Part shown: piece after piece, positions 41,777 to 49,518 of the stretch
Position numbering within the stretch: position 1 is the stretch's first letter
Layout: each line of letters opens with the position of its first letter
DNA from: Verrucomicrobiia bacterium
Lineage (GTDB): Bacteria; Verrucomicrobiota; Verrucomicrobiia; Verrucomicrobiales; DEV007
NCBI GenBank assembly: GCA_020439995.1
Contig: JAGROY010000122.1
Coordinates: 1-64,000 of the forward strand
Reading direction: 5' to 3'
DNA length: 64,000 bases
Position numbers and translations under genes: made by a program
The notes under the pieces: model-generated
What the model was told of the DNA's origin: nothing
Database searches by the model: none
Seen by the model: the letters and a program-made list of their open reading frames with translations, nothing else

Positions 41777-43807
41777 TCAATCTGCGGGCGCTATCTCGCG
41801 ATACGGTCGGCCTTGCTCGTAGACCTTGCGTCTCCGCTGGAGTTCTCGCAGTTGTCGCTCATTCTTGGACGACTGCGCCCGTTTGATTGCTTCATCCACT
41901 GTCGTGAGCGCGGTCGAGAAATCACCGTTTGCCGCGTGAGCTGCAGCCAGCGTATCGAGCACATCAGCTTGATCGCGCTTAGTCGCTTCGGCTGCCAATT
42001 TCGCCAATTTTAGGGATTCTGCGGGATTGCGAATTTTCGCATTGCTGTGCGTGGCGAGGAGCCACGCAAGTTCATTCGCAGCCACAAACAGATCGGGTTG
42101 TAGTCTAAGTGATTCGCGGAACTCAGCTACCGCTTCCGCTGCCTTTCTCAGGCGGATCAGTGCGTGGCCGAGCCAGAGCCGGGCGATCGGATCTTTGTCG
42201 TCCGCATCGATCAGGCGACGCAGGTGCTCGGCGGCTTCGGCGTAGTTTCTGGACTGGATGAGTGCGAGACTCAGCATCTTGCGAGTATTCGTCACGTCCG
42301 GCTGAGCGTCCACTGCGGCCTGGAGATGAGGAACGGCGTCAGCGTATCTCTGAAGCTTGAACAAAACCGTCCCCATGTCCAAGTGAGCGCGTGTCTTGCC
42401 GGGATTCAACGCCAGTGTTCGGGCGTAGGCTCCTAGCGACTCCTTGTCGTTGCCTTGAATCCGCAGTTCGTTTGCCACCAGAAAATACGATTCGGCGAGC
42501 CCCTGATTCGCCCGATCATCGCCGGTGACCGTGAATGCGTCGAGATATGCCTTAGCTGCCTCCGGCTTTCCGAAGCTCATGAATTTGTCGATCATTACGG
42601 TCGGAGTCGGCGGCCATGGGCCCTCGATCCAGACCCCGGGAAAATGTGCAGCCTCTGTTTGCAGCACCTCCGGCTCAGCCCCTAACAAAGCCAGATCAGC
42701 AATCAATTGCTCAGAACTTACCGGCCCTTTGTAGATGACTGCGATCTGTCGGCTGGAATCGAGCAGAATACTGCTAGGTACCGGAAACGGTTCGAATTTG
42801 TCGATCTGAGCGCGCCCGGCGACCTCGAGCATTTCAAGGAATTCCGTCCCAGCGAGCCCTACCTCGAAGGGAAAAGATAGCCTTTCGACAAATGGCCCCA
42901 CGACTGCGCGCCGAGTATCAAAGGTGGCATCCGGTTCATCGACGCTAAGTCCGAGAATGCGAATTCCAGCCTGCCTCAGCGAGTCCGCGTTATCAGACCA
43001 ATCCTTCATTTCCACGAGGCATGGGGCACACCATGAGGCCCAAAGGTTGATCAGAAGTGGGTGCCCATCGCTCACGAGAGGGGCTGCCATCCCGTTCAGG
43101 TTAATATAGTCGGCGTGTGGCAGTGGCAGACGTGAGGCCATAACGATGCGGGCCTGCTGCGAAGTGACCGTGTTCGGTGCTGTGATCGTAGCCAGCTTCT
43201 CTGCAACTGGCGGCTCCCAATTGCGAGCCCTGTTGGCACCCTGCTCGATCGTAAAGAATTTTCCCGCAATTACACCACTTATTGTCTCCTCGTCGGTAGC
43301 ACCTGGCCAGCGAACAGTAATCTTCTCAATCAGAGAGCCGTTCCTCAGTCCGAAGTGCAGCCACGATGATGACTGCGACAGAAAGCCATCACCCGCAGTA
43401 ACGGTGCGAATCTGCCGCCCGGGAGAATTATTCAAGGTCAGAGTAACCCGGGCTCCTACTGCCGAACGATTGCTTGAGGTACCCGTCAATTTCACAGCAA
43501 GGAACGCATTCTGTGTAACCGACTGATTGTGCTGCAGACGAATGCGGGGAGCGGTACGGTTCGTGATCCAGAAGTCAAGCTTGCCGTCGAAGTCCCAGTC
43601 AACGACACCGATGGACCGGCCATCGTCCATGACATTCAATCCAGTGGAGCCTGATACATCGGCAAATCGTGGGGATCCGTCCGCAGCATTTCCAAGGTTG
43701 AGAAAGGCAGTATTGCGTTCAAACCCACTATAGGATTTCCCCTCCTCTAACATTGTGTTCAGCGCCTTCCAGGCTTTTCGGTAGGCGAAGACGGCACTGG
43801 TCTTCAT
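41777..43807 (-). CDS. Downstream half of split CRTAC1-type protein: ASPIC/UnbV - TlpA-like - TPR
   Basis: 676 residues from ATG 43807, but the open frame and the homology reach back to 43852, directly after the in-frame TGA that ends the upstream half. Residues just after the TGA (SFAWRRVSSQSPNSA, then YRKAWKALN and GFERNTAFLN) continue the CRTAC1 pattern. Next are an ASPIC/UnbV domain (GARVTLTLNNSPGRQIRTV...WLHFGLRNGSLIEKITVRWPG), a thioredoxin/TlpA-like domain with the redox motif WASWCAPC, and a long TPR tail. It has no signal peptide of its own, so as a free-standing protein it could not be exported. I favour expression by UGA readthrough (Sec) as part of one chain with 43853-45775; a broken gene is the alternative. 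Confidence 0.8.
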   Translation of the reverse strand: MKTSAVFAYRKAWKALNTMLEEGKSYSGFERNTAFLNLGNAADGSPRFADVSGSTGLNVMDDGRSIGVVDWDFDGKLDFWITNRTAPRIRLQHNQSVTQNAFLAVKLTGTSSNRSAVGARVTLTLNNSPGRQIRTVTAGDGFLSQSSSWLHFGLRNGSLIEKITVRWPGATDEETISGVIAGKFFTIEQGANRARNWEPPVAEKLATITAPNTVTSQQARIVMASRLPLPHADYINLNGMAAPLVSDGHPLLINLWASWCAPCLVEMKDWSDNADSLRQAGIRILGLSVDEPDATFDTRRAVVGPFVERLSFPFEVGLAGTEFLEMLEVAGRAQIDKFEPFPVPSSILLDSSRQIAVIYKGPVSSEQLIADLALLGAEPEVLQTEAAHFPGVWIEGPWPPTPTVMIDKFMSFGKPEAAKAYLDAFTVTGDDRANQGLAESYFLVANELRIQGNDKESLGAYARTLALNPGKTRAHLDMGTVLFKLQRYADAVPHLQAAVDAQPDVTNTRKMLSLALIQSRNYAEAAEHLRRLIDADDKDPIARLWLGHALIRLRKAAEAVAEFRESLRLQPDLFVAANELAWLLATHSNAKIRNPAESLKLAKLAAEATKRDQADVLDTLAAAHAANGDFSTALTTVDEAIKRAQSSKNERQLRELQRRRKVYEQGRPYREIAPAD

Positions 43808-43824
43808 TGCACTGTTTGGCGATT

Positions 43825-43855
43825 GCGACGAGACCCGCCGCCATGCGAAACTTCA
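43825..43855 (-). promoter_or_regulatory. In-frame UGA with SECIS-like hairpin (candidate selenocysteine site)
   Basis: The TGA at 43855-43853 (minus strand) is followed after 11 bases by stem GCGGCG, loop GGTCT, stem CGTCGC (43841-43836, 43835-43831, 43830-43825). Five Watson-Crick pairs and one G-U wobble close the loop. The loop starts 18 bases after the UGA. From memory, the E. coli fdhF SECIS loop is also GGUCU at almost the same distance (18 intervening bases there, 17 here), with the G and U contacted by SelB. The reading frame continues without shift. No sel genes are in the window. Confidence 0.55.
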
Positions 43856-45775
43856 CAAATCCCCACTGTCTTCTGTCGTGATCATACCGTTGGCCACGAT
43901 CAGATCCTGCCTGCCATCGTTGTTCAGATCCGTGAACTTGGAACTCCATGCCCATCGCGCCATGTTAGCGCCAGACTGTTGGGTGAGATCCCGAAATGAA
44001 CCGTCGCCACTGTTCAGGAAAACCGAGTTCCCGCGTGCGTGCCGACGGGCCTGATTGCGCGTTGACTGATCCGCTCCTGGAAGGAATTGCCGCTGCAATG
44101 TGATGCGATTACCGGCATTCGACCACATGTTGCCGACGTAGAGATCCATCAGGCCGTCGTTGTTATAGTCGCCCCACGCTGCCGACATGCCGGGACCGAC
44201 ATCAACAACTCCCGCCGCTTCAGCAACATCGGTGAACGTTCCATTGCCATCATTGCGAAATAGATTGTTTCGGCCAAAATCATTGGAGACATAGAGATCC
44301 TGATCGCCATCGTTATCAAAATCCTCCCAGGCACAGGCGAGGCTAAACCTTCGGTTGTTGACGTTCATCCCGGCAGATTCAGTGACATCGGCAAATCCGA
44401 ATTCCCCTTCATTGCGGAGCAATGTGTTCGGCCCGCCGTTGTTAGCATCGTAGTATGGCATCGGGATGCCGAGCGCTCCCTGCTCAGCCTTGATCTCGCC
44501 GCTGGCATCCCGGCCACAAAGATACAGATCCACCCGTCCATCCAAGTCATAGTCGGCTGCGGCCATCGAATTGATCTGACCATCACTCGGAAACTCTCCG
44601 CGCTTTATGAAATGGCCGTGTCCGTCGTTCTCAAAGACCACCAATGTCCAGGCCAGCCCAACTGCGAGGTCTTGATCTCCATCGTTGTCGAAATCTACGA
44701 ACAAGGCACTTCTGCAAAAGTCGAGGATATCCACTCCAGATTCAACAGAATAGTCGATCGCCGATCCGTCCGACTGGTGTATAAACAATCTATTCGGAAG
44801 TCCGCCGGGTTGCAGGACATAAATATCGTCGAGCAGATCCCCGTTTACATCTCCCACTGCAATCCCTTGTGCCCCCAGCAGATCGGCGACCAGACTCCGA
44901 TCCGATCGTGCCCGCCAGTAGTCGAAACTTTTCGATAGTTGCTCGCCATAGCTGGAGGTCTTTGACAGAACCGCCGGAGCGATGTCGGCAAACTCAATGC
45001 GTCCAACGCCAGGAGTGACTTCCCGGTAATTGGTAACGTCGATCGACCTTAATCGCCAGGGCGACTCAACAGTCCACATGCAATGCCAAACCGCCGTGAC
45101 CTGAACCCTGCCGGTTGGTTGCTTCCCGCTCATCTCAAACAACAGTCGAGTCAGAATTTGGGATTCCTGCTTCTCGACGTGCATCACTTTGAATTTCGCA
45201 TACACCTCCGTCGCCGCTCCAAAGGGCTGCAACAAAAGTGAGAGTGCTTCCATGAATCCCTTAGCATCCAAGTATTTCCGATCACTTGTTGCCACGCTTC
45301 CCTCATCAACTGAACTCTCGTGTTCATTCATCAATGTTGTCAACTTCTCCGCACGCAACGAACTGCACGCGAATCCCTCGGATACAAGTGCTGCGATCAA
45401 ATCTGGATCCGCCGCGCTGGGATGTTCGAGATACTCAGCAACGGCATGTTTCATCTCGGAACTGACGAACTCGCTGAAGGCTTCACTTTCCCAACCCGCG
45501 CTGCTGGGATCGACGTTCGAAAGTTCGTCAGCCAATCGACGGTGAAACTGCAGGGCATCGGATTGCAGTGATAAGCTCCCCAGCCCTGGATCTTCAGCGA
45601 TCGGGTACTCGGCTGCAGCAACCACCACGGATTCAATAGACGCAGGGCTACTTTGATCCCCCACCTCCTCAGGCTCGATCAGTCCATTGCGCTGCCCGTC
45701 GCAGCCGAGGAGAGCTACCATGAGCAAACATAGGGCGACTCTCACTACTGTCGAAGTGCTGAGGGACATCATCAC
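43853..45775 (-). CDS. Upstream half of split CRTAC1-type protein: FG-GAP/VCBS lipoprotein
   Basis: 640 residues ending at the TGA at 43853-43855. The start is a lipoprotein signal (VALCLLMVALLGCDGQ, lipobox LLGC). A helical region of about 270 residues follows, then an FG-GAP/VCBS-type beta-propeller of at least five blades with Ca-binding loops (VGDVNGDLLDDIYVL, VDFDNDGDQDLAVG, ADYDLDGRVDLYLC, EDFDNDGDQDLYVSNDFG, GDYNNDGLMDLYVGNMW, TDLNNDGRQDLIVANGM). CRTAC1-type proteins in PVC bacteria normally continue into an ASPIC/UnbV domain. Here that part lies in the same frame just beyond the TGA (41777-43852). The truncated half alone would be a surface lipoprotein without its redox and TPR parts. 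Confidence 0.88.
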   Translation of the reverse strand: MMMSLSTSTVVRVALCLLMVALLGCDGQRNGLIEPEEVGDQSSPASIESVVVAAAEYPIAEDPGLGSLSLQSDALQFHRRLADELSNVDPSSAGWESEAFSEFVSSEMKHAVAEYLEHPSAADPDLIAALVSEGFACSSLRAEKLTTLMNEHESSVDEGSVATSDRKYLDAKGFMEALSLLLQPFGAATEVYAKFKVMHVEKQESQILTRLLFEMSGKQPTGRVQVTAVWHCMWTVESPWRLRSIDVTNYREVTPGVGRIEFADIAPAVLSKTSSYGEQLSKSFDYWRARSDRSLVADLLGAQGIAVGDVNGDLLDDIYVLQPGGLPNRLFIHQSDGSAIDYSVESGVDILDFCRSALFVDFDNDGDQDLAVGLAWTLVVFENDGHGHFIKRGEFPSDGQINSMAAADYDLDGRVDLYLCGRDASGEIKAEQGALGIPMPYYDANNGGPNTLLRNEGEFGFADVTESAGMNVNNRRFSLACAWEDFDNDGDQDLYVSNDFGRNNLFRNDGNGTFTDVAEAAGVVDVGPGMSAAWGDYNNDGLMDLYVGNMWSNAGNRITLQRQFLPGADQSTRNQARRHARGNSVFLNSGDGSFRDLTQQSGANMARWAWSSKFTDLNNDGRQDLIVANGMITTEDSGDL

Positions 45776-45963
45776 AATCTAGACCAAGCTACAGGGACTC
45801 ATCTACCACGAATTTCGCCCTTTGAGAAGAGCAGAGATGCCGGGATTGCGGCAAGCGTTCGCTCATTGTTTTTTTGCAGAATCCATCGTTTGTTCCTTGT
45901 CGTACCCGGCAGCTTTCCCTAAAAGGGTCTCGGTTCGCTAAAACTTCCCAACTCCCGGCAAAC
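45776..45963. promoter_or_regulatory. Divergent promoter region, CRTAC1-type / LamG genes
   Basis: A 188-bp spacer between divergent genes. It contains a T-run (about 45868-45875) and the small palindrome CCCTAAAAGGG near 45918-45928. No confident promoter hexamers could be assigned. A TTG-initiated extension of the LamG gene into this region (from 45874) was not adopted because it would bury the signal peptide. Confidence 0.35.
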
Positions 45964-48900
45964 ATGACAGCATCCAAACTCCACCGTCTACCAATTGCTA
46001 TCTGTCTCTTGATCACTGCCACCATCGTCTGTAGCAATGGTGCCGAGTTGCTTGGTTACTATGCATTTGAGGACAACTACGATGATTCCTCCGGCAACGG
46101 CAATGATGCCCAGGAGTCGCAGAATCCCGATCAACTGAGCTTCACCCAGGGACTGCGCGGGAAAGGCCTCGACATCAATGATCCGACCGTCGGAGGAGCC
46201 GCCAACAACAACTCCGGTGGCTCAATCGATATCCCGATCGATGCAAACGCTGATGTGCTGCCTGCCGTGTCCTTCGGTGGCTGGGTCAAGGTGGATGACG
46301 AAACTTTTGGGGAATTTGATGGCTTCATGGCAACCGACAATGGCGGCTGGGATCGCGGCATCACAGTCAACGAGGGCGGCACGGGAGCTTTTGGTGTTGC
46401 CAGCGGTGAAGGCCCGACAGTGGCTGGGGAGGTCACCCCTGGTGAATGGCGATACGTCGTTGGAACATTCGACATCGATTCTGGAATTTCGACGGTCTAC
46501 GTCGGCAATGCTGACGCAACAACTCAGACGACGGAATCCAATGTGGGCAACGATCTTGCTCAGATCGGTGAGCCGGTCATTGAGGTCGGTCGCTATGACA
46601 ATCAGGATTTGGACGGCGTCGTCGATGACCTGTTCGTGTTCGACGGAGCACTGGACGCTCATCAGGTCAATGCGATCCGAAACCTGCGCCTGAGCACGGC
46701 GGACCTCTCTCCCCTGCACGTGAACCAGATCTTTTTACTCTTCGAAGACGGCGAGGAAGGCCCGGTGAACGGCGCCCTCTGGAAACCGGTTTCCGGGCTC
46801 CCCGACGACAACCCGGGCGTGCTGGTAGACATGGGAGACGCGGGCGTCGCGGTAGTACTGGACGACTCAGGCAACGGCATGCTCGGTGAGCGCGCTGCAT
46901 TCATACCGAAGGAGGGCGACTCAGACGGCGATGGTATGAACGATGACTGGGAACGCACTTTTTTTGGCTCTCTGGATCGAGATGGCACTGGCGACTTCGA
47001 TGAAGATGGCGTGACGGATCTCGCTGAATTTGACGGCGAGTTGCTTCCAGACAACAAGGATACCGACGGTGATGGTCTGGAGGATGGGGCGGAAATCACT
47101 GCGACGAGCAATCCCAAACTCAAAGACACCGATGGCGACGGACTCGAAGACGGTCCGGAAGTCGCTACTTACAAAACAAGCCCCGTCAAAGCGGACACGG
47201 ACGGCGACACCTTTAGTGACAAGGTCGAAGTCGAATCGAAGACCGACCCGCTCGATATCAACGATAAGCCAGTGCCCGCTGCATTCGGTCTCATCGCCTA
47301 CTATGAATTTGAAGACGATTACTTCGATGTCTCGCAGAACGGAAACACAGCAGTCCCTTCGTTCAATCCTGATGAACTAACCTTCGCCCCGGGCTTCCGT
47401 GGTCAGGGCGTGGACATCAACGACCCAACGCCAGACAACAATTCGGGCGGCTCAGTAGATATCCCGGTGGATGCCAATCCGTCAGCCCTGCCTGGAGTCA
47501 CCTTTGGCGGATGGCTTAAAGTCGATGAAGAAACGTTTGGCGAATTCGATGGCTTTATGGCCACCGACAACGGCGGCTGGGATCGGGGAATCACGGTTAA
47601 CGAGGGCGGCACTGGAGCCTTCGGCGTCGCCAGTGGTGCAGGCCCGGTAGTGGCGGGAGAAGTGACGCCGGGACAATGGCAGTTCGTGGTCGGCACGTTC
47701 GACAATGACGCTGGTATCGCCAATGTCTATGTCGGCAACGACCTCCCTGCCATTCAGACTACTGAGTCTGCTGAGGGACAGGATATTACGATTCAGGGCG
47801 AGCCGGTAATCGAAATCGGGCGCTACGACAACCAGGACCTCGACGCTCTCGTCGATGATGTATTTGTTTTCGACAGCGCACTCGACGCCCATCACGTCAA
47901 TGCGATCCGCAACCTCCGCCTGAGCGCGGTCAATTACACACCGCGACAGGTAGCCGAGCTGTTTCAGCTATTCGAAGCCGGGGCATCTGGCACCGTCGGC
48001 AATGCGGACTGGGCTCCCACCACTGGCCTCAGTGCAAGTAATCCTGGGGCCCTTGTAAAAATTGGTGACACTGGGGTCGCGGTAGTTCTCGACGATTCAG
48101 GCAAAGGAATGCTGGCTCCGGCATCAGCGTTCAGCACCACCGATTCCGATGGTGATGGTCTGGATGACCTCTGGGAAACGGTGAACTTTGGAAACCTCGA
48201 CCAGAATGCTGAAGACGATCCGGATGGGGATTCACTCAATAATGCTGGCGAATTCGATGCCGGAACACGCCCTACCATCAAGGACACTGACGGCGATGGC
48301 CTGGAAGATGGAGCTGAAGTGACCACGCACATGACCAGTCCCGTGAAGGCGGACAGTGATGAAGACGGGGCCGATGATGCAAGGGAAATCGCCGCAGGCA
48401 CCGATCCTAACGATCCTGCCAGCGTGCCAAAGGATGCTGCTCCACCACTCCTGGCGTTGTTCGAATTCGAAGATGAATTCGCCGATAGCTCGGGCAATGA
48501 CAACACGGCCCGCGCAGAGCAGAATCCGGACGAAATCAGCTTTGTAGCAGGCTTCCGTGGGCTGAGCGCCGACATCAATGACCCCGACGATGCCCCGAAC
48601 ACCGGCGGTTCTTTCAATATTCCTGTTGACGCAAATCCGTCATCACTACCTGACGTTTCATTCGGTGGTTGGATCAACGTGGCCGAAGACAATTTTGAGT
48701 TCGACGGTTTCATGGCCGTCGACAACGGCGGTTGGGATCGTGGTATTTCGGTAAACGCCGAGGCCTCTGCGGCATTCGGTGTCGCCAGTGGTGCAGCGCC
48801 CGTCAGCAGCGGCGAAATCAAAAATGGCGAATGGCAATACGTCGTCGCCACTTTCAGTGATGACGAAGACCGCGCCATCCTCTATGTGGGCAGCGCCGAT

Positions 48901-49518
48901 TCCGCCTCCCAAACGACCGAGACAGCCGAAGCACAAGATCTTGCGACAGAGGGAGAAGTCGAAATTGAGGTCGGCCGTTACGACAATCAGGACCTCGACG
49001 GCATGGTGGATGACATCTTCGTCTTTGGAGGCGAATTGACACCGCATCAAGCGAACGCAATCCGAAACCTGCGCCTGAGCCCGCTCGATTACTCCCCAGC
49101 AGAAGCCGCCCAGGTGTTCGAGCTTTTCTCCAACGACGCCAGCGGCGCAGTGGGAGCCTACGGCTGGAATCCAGTGTCCGGTCTCGATGCCACGGCACCT
49201 GGAGCGGTGATTGACTTCGGTGGAGCATTTGCGGTCGTGCTCGACAATGCGGGCAACGGAATGCTGACCGGCTCGGCTCAAGTCTTCCAGATCAAGACGA
49301 TCGAAATCACCAGCAACGCCACTACCCGCAGTGTCACGCTTACGTGGAACTCGCAGAACAATCGAGTCTACGCCCTCGAAGCCGCCGCAGACCTCGATGC
49401 GTGGCTGGAAGTCGATGATGGCATCGACTCCGAAGGCAGCGAGACCAGCTACACTGAAACGTCGGCAGCACTGTTGGGCGAGACGGTTCGCTACTATCGG
49501 GTGCGGGAGGTGCGGTAA
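45964..49518 (+). CDS. Exported protein with three LamG-like domains and Ca-binding type-3 repeats
   Basis: About 1184 residues from ATG 45964, which begins a signal peptide (LPIAICLLITATIVCSNGA). Three concanavalin A/LamG-like units repeat the same sequence, each with FEDxxxDSSGNxN-type openings, a GGW segment, EFDGFMAxDNGGWDRGI, GRYDNQDLD and ANAIRNLRLS. Between them are thrombospondin type-3-like Asp-rich repeats (DSDGDGMNDDWE, DTDGDGLEDGAE, DTDGDGLEDGPE) that bind calcium. A C-terminal beta domain (VTLTWNSQNNRVYALEAAADLDAW) is typical of Verrucomicrobia secreted proteins. Probably surface adhesion or glycan binding. The next gene begins immediately after the stop. Confidence 0.85.
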   Translation: MTASKLHRLPIAICLLITATIVCSNGAELLGYYAFEDNYDDSSGNGNDAQESQNPDQLSFTQGLRGKGLDINDPTVGGAANNNSGGSIDIPIDANADVLPAVSFGGWVKVDDETFGEFDGFMATDNGGWDRGITVNEGGTGAFGVASGEGPTVAGEVTPGEWRYVVGTFDIDSGISTVYVGNADATTQTTESNVGNDLAQIGEPVIEVGRYDNQDLDGVVDDLFVFDGALDAHQVNAIRNLRLSTADLSPLHVNQIFLLFEDGEEGPVNGALWKPVSGLPDDNPGVLVDMGDAGVAVVLDDSGNGMLGERAAFIPKEGDSDGDGMNDDWERTFFGSLDRDGTGDFDEDGVTDLAEFDGELLPDNKDTDGDGLEDGAEITATSNPKLKDTDGDGLEDGPEVATYKTSPVKADTDGDTFSDKVEVESKTDPLDINDKPVPAAFGLIAYYEFEDDYFDVSQNGNTAVPSFNPDELTFAPGFRGQGVDINDPTPDNNSGGSVDIPVDANPSALPGVTFGGWLKVDEETFGEFDGFMATDNGGWDRGITVNEGGTGAFGVASGAGPVVAGEVTPGQWQFVVGTFDNDAGIANVYVGNDLPAIQTTESAEGQDITIQGEPVIEIGRYDNQDLDALVDDVFVFDSALDAHHVNAIRNLRLSAVNYTPRQVAELFQLFEAGASGTVGNADWAPTTGLSASNPGALVKIGDTGVAVVLDDSGKGMLAPASAFSTTDSDGDGLDDLWETVNFGNLDQNAEDDPDGDSLNNAGEFDAGTRPTIKDTDGDGLEDGAEVTTHMTSPVKADSDEDGADDAREIAAGTDPNDPASVPKDAAPPLLALFEFEDEFADSSGNDNTARAEQNPDEISFVAGFRGLSADINDPDDAPNTGGSFNIPVDANPSSLPDVSFGGWINVAEDNFEFDGFMAVDNGGWDRGISVNAEASAAFGVASGAAPVSSGEIKNGEWQYVVATFSDDEDRAILYVGSADSASQTTETAEAQDLATEGEVEIEVGRYDNQDLDGMVDDIFVFGGELTPHQANAIRNLRLSPLDYSPAEAAQVFELFSNDASGAVGAYGWNPVSGLDATAPGAVIDFGGAFAVVLDNAGNGMLTGSAQVFQIKTIEITSNATTRSVTLTWNSQNNRVYALEAAADLDAWLEVDDGIDSEGSETSYTETSAALLGETVRYYRVREVR

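Follow-up and report, generated by a model that had tools for sequence, protein, structure and literature searches.

Does the UGA codon at positions 43853..43855 (minus strand) end a gene, or does it encode selenocysteine (Sec)? The codon lies in a 64,000-nucleotide (nt) stretch of the Verrucomicrobiia bacterium assembly GCA_020439995.1 (contig JAGROY010000122.1, positions 1 to 64,000), here called the window. The original prediction held that two minus-strand open reading frames (ORFs) on either side of the codon are one and the same frame, and this proved correct: 640 codons are followed by TGA (43855..43853), by 15 codons up to the first ATG, and then by an ORF of 676 aa. With UGA read as Sec, the full frame of the candidate selenoprotein (41777..45775, minus strand), delimited by translation and homologue alignment, specifies 1332 residues, of which Sec is residue 641. 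It starts at GTG 45775 or at one of the ATGs shortly downstream, ends at the terminal stop TGA 41777-41779, and contains no other internal stop. The data presented below indicated that the gene very likely encodes a selenoprotein, belonging to a Sec subfamily of the CRTAC1/ASPIC-UnbV FG-GAP proteins, with a putative extracytoplasmic redox role.

As a chance check, the six frames of the window were scanned for single stops flanked on each side by an open stretch of >120 codons in the same frame. Twelve such broken frames were found, six of them with TGA, and most were antisense shadows of genes. Taken alone, the broken frame is weak evidence for recoding, and since single-stop broken frames are not rare in the window, homology was needed.

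A conserved UGA column and hairpin

When the 1332-residue read-through product was used as the query, full-length relatives were found in numerous genomes from the same family and order, and a single internal TGA was listed for almost all of these relatives; the alignments cover residues 68-1331, spanning the UGA. In the translated alignments, the stop always falls in a single column, within the motif (D/E)DL-U-[SGM]-x-x-W-R-x-V. After duplicate removal, about 84 distinct UGA homologues were retained, coming from at least 14 genomes of Verrucomicrobiota and from the Planctomycetes metagenome-assembled genomes (MAGs) L042-L045, on which the breadth in Planctomycetes rests. A Roseibacillus MAG is also among the carriers of the family. 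Across several genera and two phyla, the stop at this column is UGA in all of them and never TAA or TAG; D(-2), the UGA, and W(+4) (84/84) are invariant, and R(+5) and V(+7) are each kept in 99%. Protein conservation begins at the codon directly after the UGA, upstream of the first ATG, and because of this the predicted fusion of both halves into one protein is supported. Extra TGAs in family genes, checked in L058 and L061, were terminal stops or lay beyond terminal stops.

The source genome carries 12 UGA paralogues, and a scan of the contig collection for the UGA form yielded 10 loci, while the viral contigs scanned for the family gave no match. A motif pattern search through 388 genomes of the phylum returned the UGA motif from just two, G000 and G379; three further pattern matches in this search, with GTC, GCC, and CAG at the column, were unrelated proteins or chance. 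Two divergent UGA subfamilies were also seen. One (L203, at about base 803, and L032, on the minus strand) has the UGA in the same column and reads PDG-U-TC(M/L)WRAVV; it differs from the main family in having a Cys at the second position after Sec (UTC). The other (L022, L026, L107, L108, L200, and L202) reads DL-U-S-x-x-W-(R/S)-x-VV.

Stop-free homologues carry Cys (n = 10) or Asp (n = 3) at the Sec column. Three of the Cys forms are encoded in the source genome, in which the next-best matches (137-161 bits, no stop) have Cys at the column, as in KDYCTNYWCHD and similar sequences. The bacterial CRTAC1-like sister group with Cys (L166-L168, L184-L189, and L191) shares the loop with the Sec forms and aligns cleanly, with its Cys exactly at the Sec column (DYC-T/S-x-F/Y-W), but it lacks the stop, the hairpin, and the TlpA and TPR parts, ends after ASPIC, and forms a separate clade. 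Thus, both patterns that had been put forward as support for Sec, a UGA with a conserved hairpin and a Cys at the same column, were observed among the homologues. In a maximum-likelihood tree of the region (midpoint rooted), 86 Sec sequences formed one clade (0.966) and the 10 Cys sequences a second one (0.976); support for separating Sec from Cys/Asp forms was 1.0, and no reversal from UGA to Cys was seen within the Sec clade. Judged by this tree and the genomes sampled, the Sec subfamily is monophyletic; it has expanded in Verrucomicrobiota and occurs in Planctomycetes as well.

The hairpin was found as originally described: 11 bases after the UGA, a 6-bp stem with one G-U pair closes the loop GGUCU (43831-43835), which starts at the 18th base. 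This putative bacterial Sec insertion sequence (SECIS), with the stem GCGGCG/CGUCGC, occupies 43825..43841 of the minus strand and has a minimum free energy (MFE) of -13.9 kcal/mol over 40 nt in the target gene. The SECIS of Escherichia coli fdhF is likewise a hairpin just 3' of the UGA, with spacing similar to that in the family, whose loop is GGUCU or GGUCG; compared with the fdhF element, the family stem is shorter and regular, and the loop is mostly GGUCG (69 of 82 sequences).

Of the cells for the five inner pairs in 82 distinct sequences, 94.1% are canonical, and 90% of the sequences form every one of these pairs. When codons were redrawn from each gene's own synonymous usage, the corresponding values were 52% (maximum, 58%) and 3.4%; when codons were shuffled among sequences sharing the amino acid, they were 87.1% (standard deviation, 0.7; maximum, 90.2%) and 56%. 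Covariation among 34 distinct sequences was 0.387 versus 0.167 after shuffling, with much lower values for slid structures, and compensatory changes on both sides were present at three pairs (16-30, 18-28, and 20-26). In the negative control, the corresponding site in Cys/Asp genes pairs at 29%. These comparisons indicated that the hairpin is maintained beyond codon constraint. Two Sec forms (L089 and L095) are exceptions to the conserved pairing, in that an A-G mismatch closes the SECIS loop (CAGGTCGGG). Published criteria for bacterial SECIS elements call for a hairpin 16-37 nt 3' of the UGA, a loop 3-9 nt long in which one of the two leading positions is a G, and an MFE of ≤ -7.5 (PMC13188914). 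The target gene agrees with all of these, and in the family 81/82 sequences have such a G and 82/84 have an MFE of ≤ -7.5. No element in Rfam matched the hairpin. Together, the UGA column in the 84 homologues and the hairpin statistics with their negative control lift the broken frame far above chance.

In the source genome, the matches for SelA (483 bits), SelB (283 bits), and SelD (263 bits) each exceed the curated cut-off, and there is a tRNA-Sec with a UCA anticodon, so that the proposed search for selA, selB, selC, and selD found all four. Among 37 related genomes, the UGA form is present in 13, each with SelB over the cut-off or a tRNA-Sec above 53 bits, and in none of the 17 genomes that have neither SelB nor tRNA-Sec (Fisher, 2e-5, a value somewhat inflated by kinship). 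In the phylum sample of 388 genomes, SelB exceeded the cut-off in 25, which include the two genomes carrying the UGA form. Two genomes, G003 and G005 (L130 and L131), have a tRNA-Sec (UCA by ARAGORN) with no SelB above the cut-off and no UGA form, which may reflect an incomplete assembly or relic machinery.

The predicted reading of the UGA as Sec is strongly supported by the conserved column with its hairpin, the Cys in stop-free forms, and the presence of the complete machinery. The 12 paralogues, the wider set of about 84 homologues, the monophyly of the Sec forms, and the association of the TlpA domain with Sec go beyond the original prediction. At UGA 43853-43855, SelB with Sec-tRNA-Sec would bind the hairpin directly downstream of the codon, and insertion of Sec would yield a single lipoprotein of about 1330 residues.

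Domain architecture and fold

The order of Pfam domains in the protein is FG-GAP repeats, UnbV_ASPIC, AhpC-TSA, and TPR, with FG-GAP and ASPIC/UnbV above curated cut-offs. At the N terminus, the translation reads as a lipoprotein signal peptide with a likely lipobox cysteine (ALLG-C; 45701..45703, minus strand, as are all features of this protein). The FG-GAP repeats (FG-GAP_3, four stretches, E 1.5e-37) correspond to a CRTAC1-like beta-propeller of approximate extent 43580..44884, in which AlphaFold2 (AF2) modelling and Foldseek place the Sec loop as an insertion between blades. The ASPIC/UnbV domain follows (residues 772-837; 43265..43462; PF07593, E 1.1e-14, above the curated cut-off). Further downstream lies a TlpA/ResA-like thioredoxin-fold domain (residues 903-1008; 42752..43069), identified by PF00578 above its cut-off, by the PDB profiles of TlpA (1jfu) and ResA (2f9s), and by the Foldseek match to ResA. 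Its redox motif, WCAPC (residues 915-919; 43019..43033), was read from the translation and the alignment, and the CxxC columns are invariant in 44/44 sequences of alignment A2. TPR repeats (Pfam TPR_1, TPR_2, TPR_16, and TPR_19) occupy about residues 1129-1228 (42092..42391). Elsewhere among the Sec forms, L107 of the second divergent subfamily keeps WCAAC, and in L099 and L101 the CxxC is replaced by Ser/Asp-type residues (GSSSGDS and DSSSQDS), possibly a degenerate redox domain.

The AF2 model covers residues 255-1050 with a mean predicted local distance difference test score (pLDDT) of 91.3 and a predicted template modelling score (pTM) of 0.91; confidence is somewhat lower in the Sec loop (pLDDT 73-86). 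In the model, Sec641 is the second residue of a predicted helix (residues 640-651, model helix 386-397; 43823..43858). Mouse CRTAC1 (9etn) is the best PDB match both by structure (Foldseek, E 7.5e-30) and by profile, and the C-terminal domain of the model matched ResA/TlpA. The FG-GAP propeller (PF13517) and the ASPIC/UnbV domain (PF07593) are common to the selenoprotein and CRTAC1, whereas the profile alignment shows no counterpart of the Sec loop in human or mouse CRTAC1, which also have no Sec, TlpA, or TPR parts.

The selenoprotein gene is adjoined by a 1214-residue ORF (window positions 45874-49518, plus strand) with three near-identical repeats (AYYEFEDDY...GGWDRGI...), probably a large repetitive surface protein. 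Around the 11 other paralogues, a reading of the neighbouring ORFs, with no family search on them, gave no consistent operon or functional hint.

Proposed role of the Sec residue and rival explanations

The Sec of the motif DL-U-S-x-x-W-R, close to the beginning of a short helix in the loop inserted between blades, would provide a reactive selenol outside the cytoplasm, on the external side of the cytoplasmic membrane, where it may take part in redox chemistry of the thiol/disulfide or peroxide type. The fused TlpA-like domain, through its CxxC, would then re-reduce Sec or accept its oxidising equivalents, so that Sec and CxxC may act jointly as an extracytoplasmic redox pair. The analysis shows the recoding signals, the conservation, and the domain linkage; for the location outside the cytoplasm, the redox chemistry, and the substrate, we state here what we infer. 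On balance, we lean slightly toward a CRTAC1-type propeller whose Sec active site is served by a fused thioredoxin module, in a large, unlisted family expanded to roughly a dozen paralogues per genome among free-living bacteria of the Planctomycetes-Verrucomicrobia-Chlamydiae (PVC) group.

It is less likely, though plausible, that the Sec is a metal ligand or a structural residue and that the TlpA domain serves other partners. No partner Cys lies near the Sec, conserved Asp/Asn repeats of the kind usual at calcium sites are numerous in the propeller, Asp substitutes at the column in a few relatives, and some divergent Sec members have no TlpA domain. On the other side, the modelled Sec sits near a helix start, as is often the case for reactive Cys/Sec, and nearly all Sec forms have a CxxC, unlike the Cys/Asp forms: among Sec forms that continue for at least 290 aa past U, 78/80 have a TlpA-type CxxC, compared with 0/11 complete Cys/Asp forms, which end after ASPIC, a comparison in which the full-length query used for the homologue search may favour TlpA-containing forms. 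This possible bias is one of several points that weigh against our interpretation. The Sec site contains no CxxU or UxxC pair, which bears on the redox chemistry; the divergent Sec forms L022, L026, and L108 have short C-termini without a TlpA domain; the 84 homologues are mutually related, and their counts are not independent events; and the genome set behind them includes MAGs.

The recoding itself was also weighed against two rival explanations. That the UGA is a genuine stop, in a split gene giving two proteins or in a pseudogene, or else a sequencing error, is highly improbable. Both parts are indeed long open frames, and the downstream part has ATGs of its own, the first of them 15 codons past the UGA. 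However, an identical UGA, never TAA or TAG, recurs in homologues of several genera and two phyla, the residues ahead of that ATG are conserved, stop-free homologues read straight through with Cys, and the hairpin is kept beyond codon constraint; on these data, a pseudogene or split gene was rejected. That UGA is reassigned genome-wide or generally read through, for example as Trp or Gly, hardly deserves credence: an open frame through UGA cannot by itself separate this from Sec, but a code of type 4 or 25 was rejected because UGA still ends 21/46 complete family ORFs, the target gene included, and moreover the internal UGA comes with the hairpin, the genome has tRNA-Sec and SelB, whose occurrence goes together with that of the family, and homologues carry Cys, not Trp or Gly, at the column.

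Relation to known selenoproteins

The C-terminal domain of the selenoprotein matches the TlpA/ResA thiol-disulfide oxidoreductases (1jfu and 2f9s) in its WCxxC motif and thioredoxin fold, but here it is a fused module, and the Sec lies outside the CxxC, about 275 residues upstream, in the propeller. A UGC-containing TlpA-family selenoprotein and a ResA-like WAxxUGC protein (PMC13188914; NF041054) are likewise Sec proteins related to TlpA/ResA; in those, Sec is placed in the thioredoxin active site, whereas the thioredoxin motif here is an ordinary CxxC. Our protein scored 27.5 against the NF041054 cut-off of 300, and none of the NCBIfam selenoprotein models exceeded its cut-off. Among the 119 prokaryotic selenoprotein families and subfamilies catalogued in 2026, there is no FG-GAP, CRTAC1, or ASPIC entry, and the accompanying review of the prokaryotic selenoproteome mentions neither Planctomycetes nor Verrucomicrobia (PMC13188914). 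In our literature search, no paper joined FG-GAP or UnbV with selenocysteine, and those on CRTAC1 and selenoproteins concern human markers. Selenoproteins have been reported in two planctomycetes (PMC4807772), a study whose supplementary candidate table lies outside this comparison. The original prediction, which knew of no described selenoprotein in this family, agrees with the 2026 catalogue and NCBIfam, and the family is likely, though not certain, to be undescribed.

The recoding mechanism is ordinary; the novelty lies in the scaffold, in the motif around Sec, and in the number of copies. With this family, selenoproteins gain a scaffold other than thioredoxin and a Sec site of neither the CxxU nor the UxxC type. 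Gene callers that terminate at UGA would cut such genes into two truncated pieces, and the proteins are easily missed. The richest bacteria reported contain 57-63 selenoproteins of all kinds (PMC13188914), compared with 12 paralogues of one family in this single genome. If the reading of a propeller Sec site with a thioredoxin module is true, this would rank among the largest expansions known for a single selenoprotein family. The CRTAC1-like proteins occur widely and are little understood, and the Sec/Cys position marks a possible active site that makes their chemistry testable.

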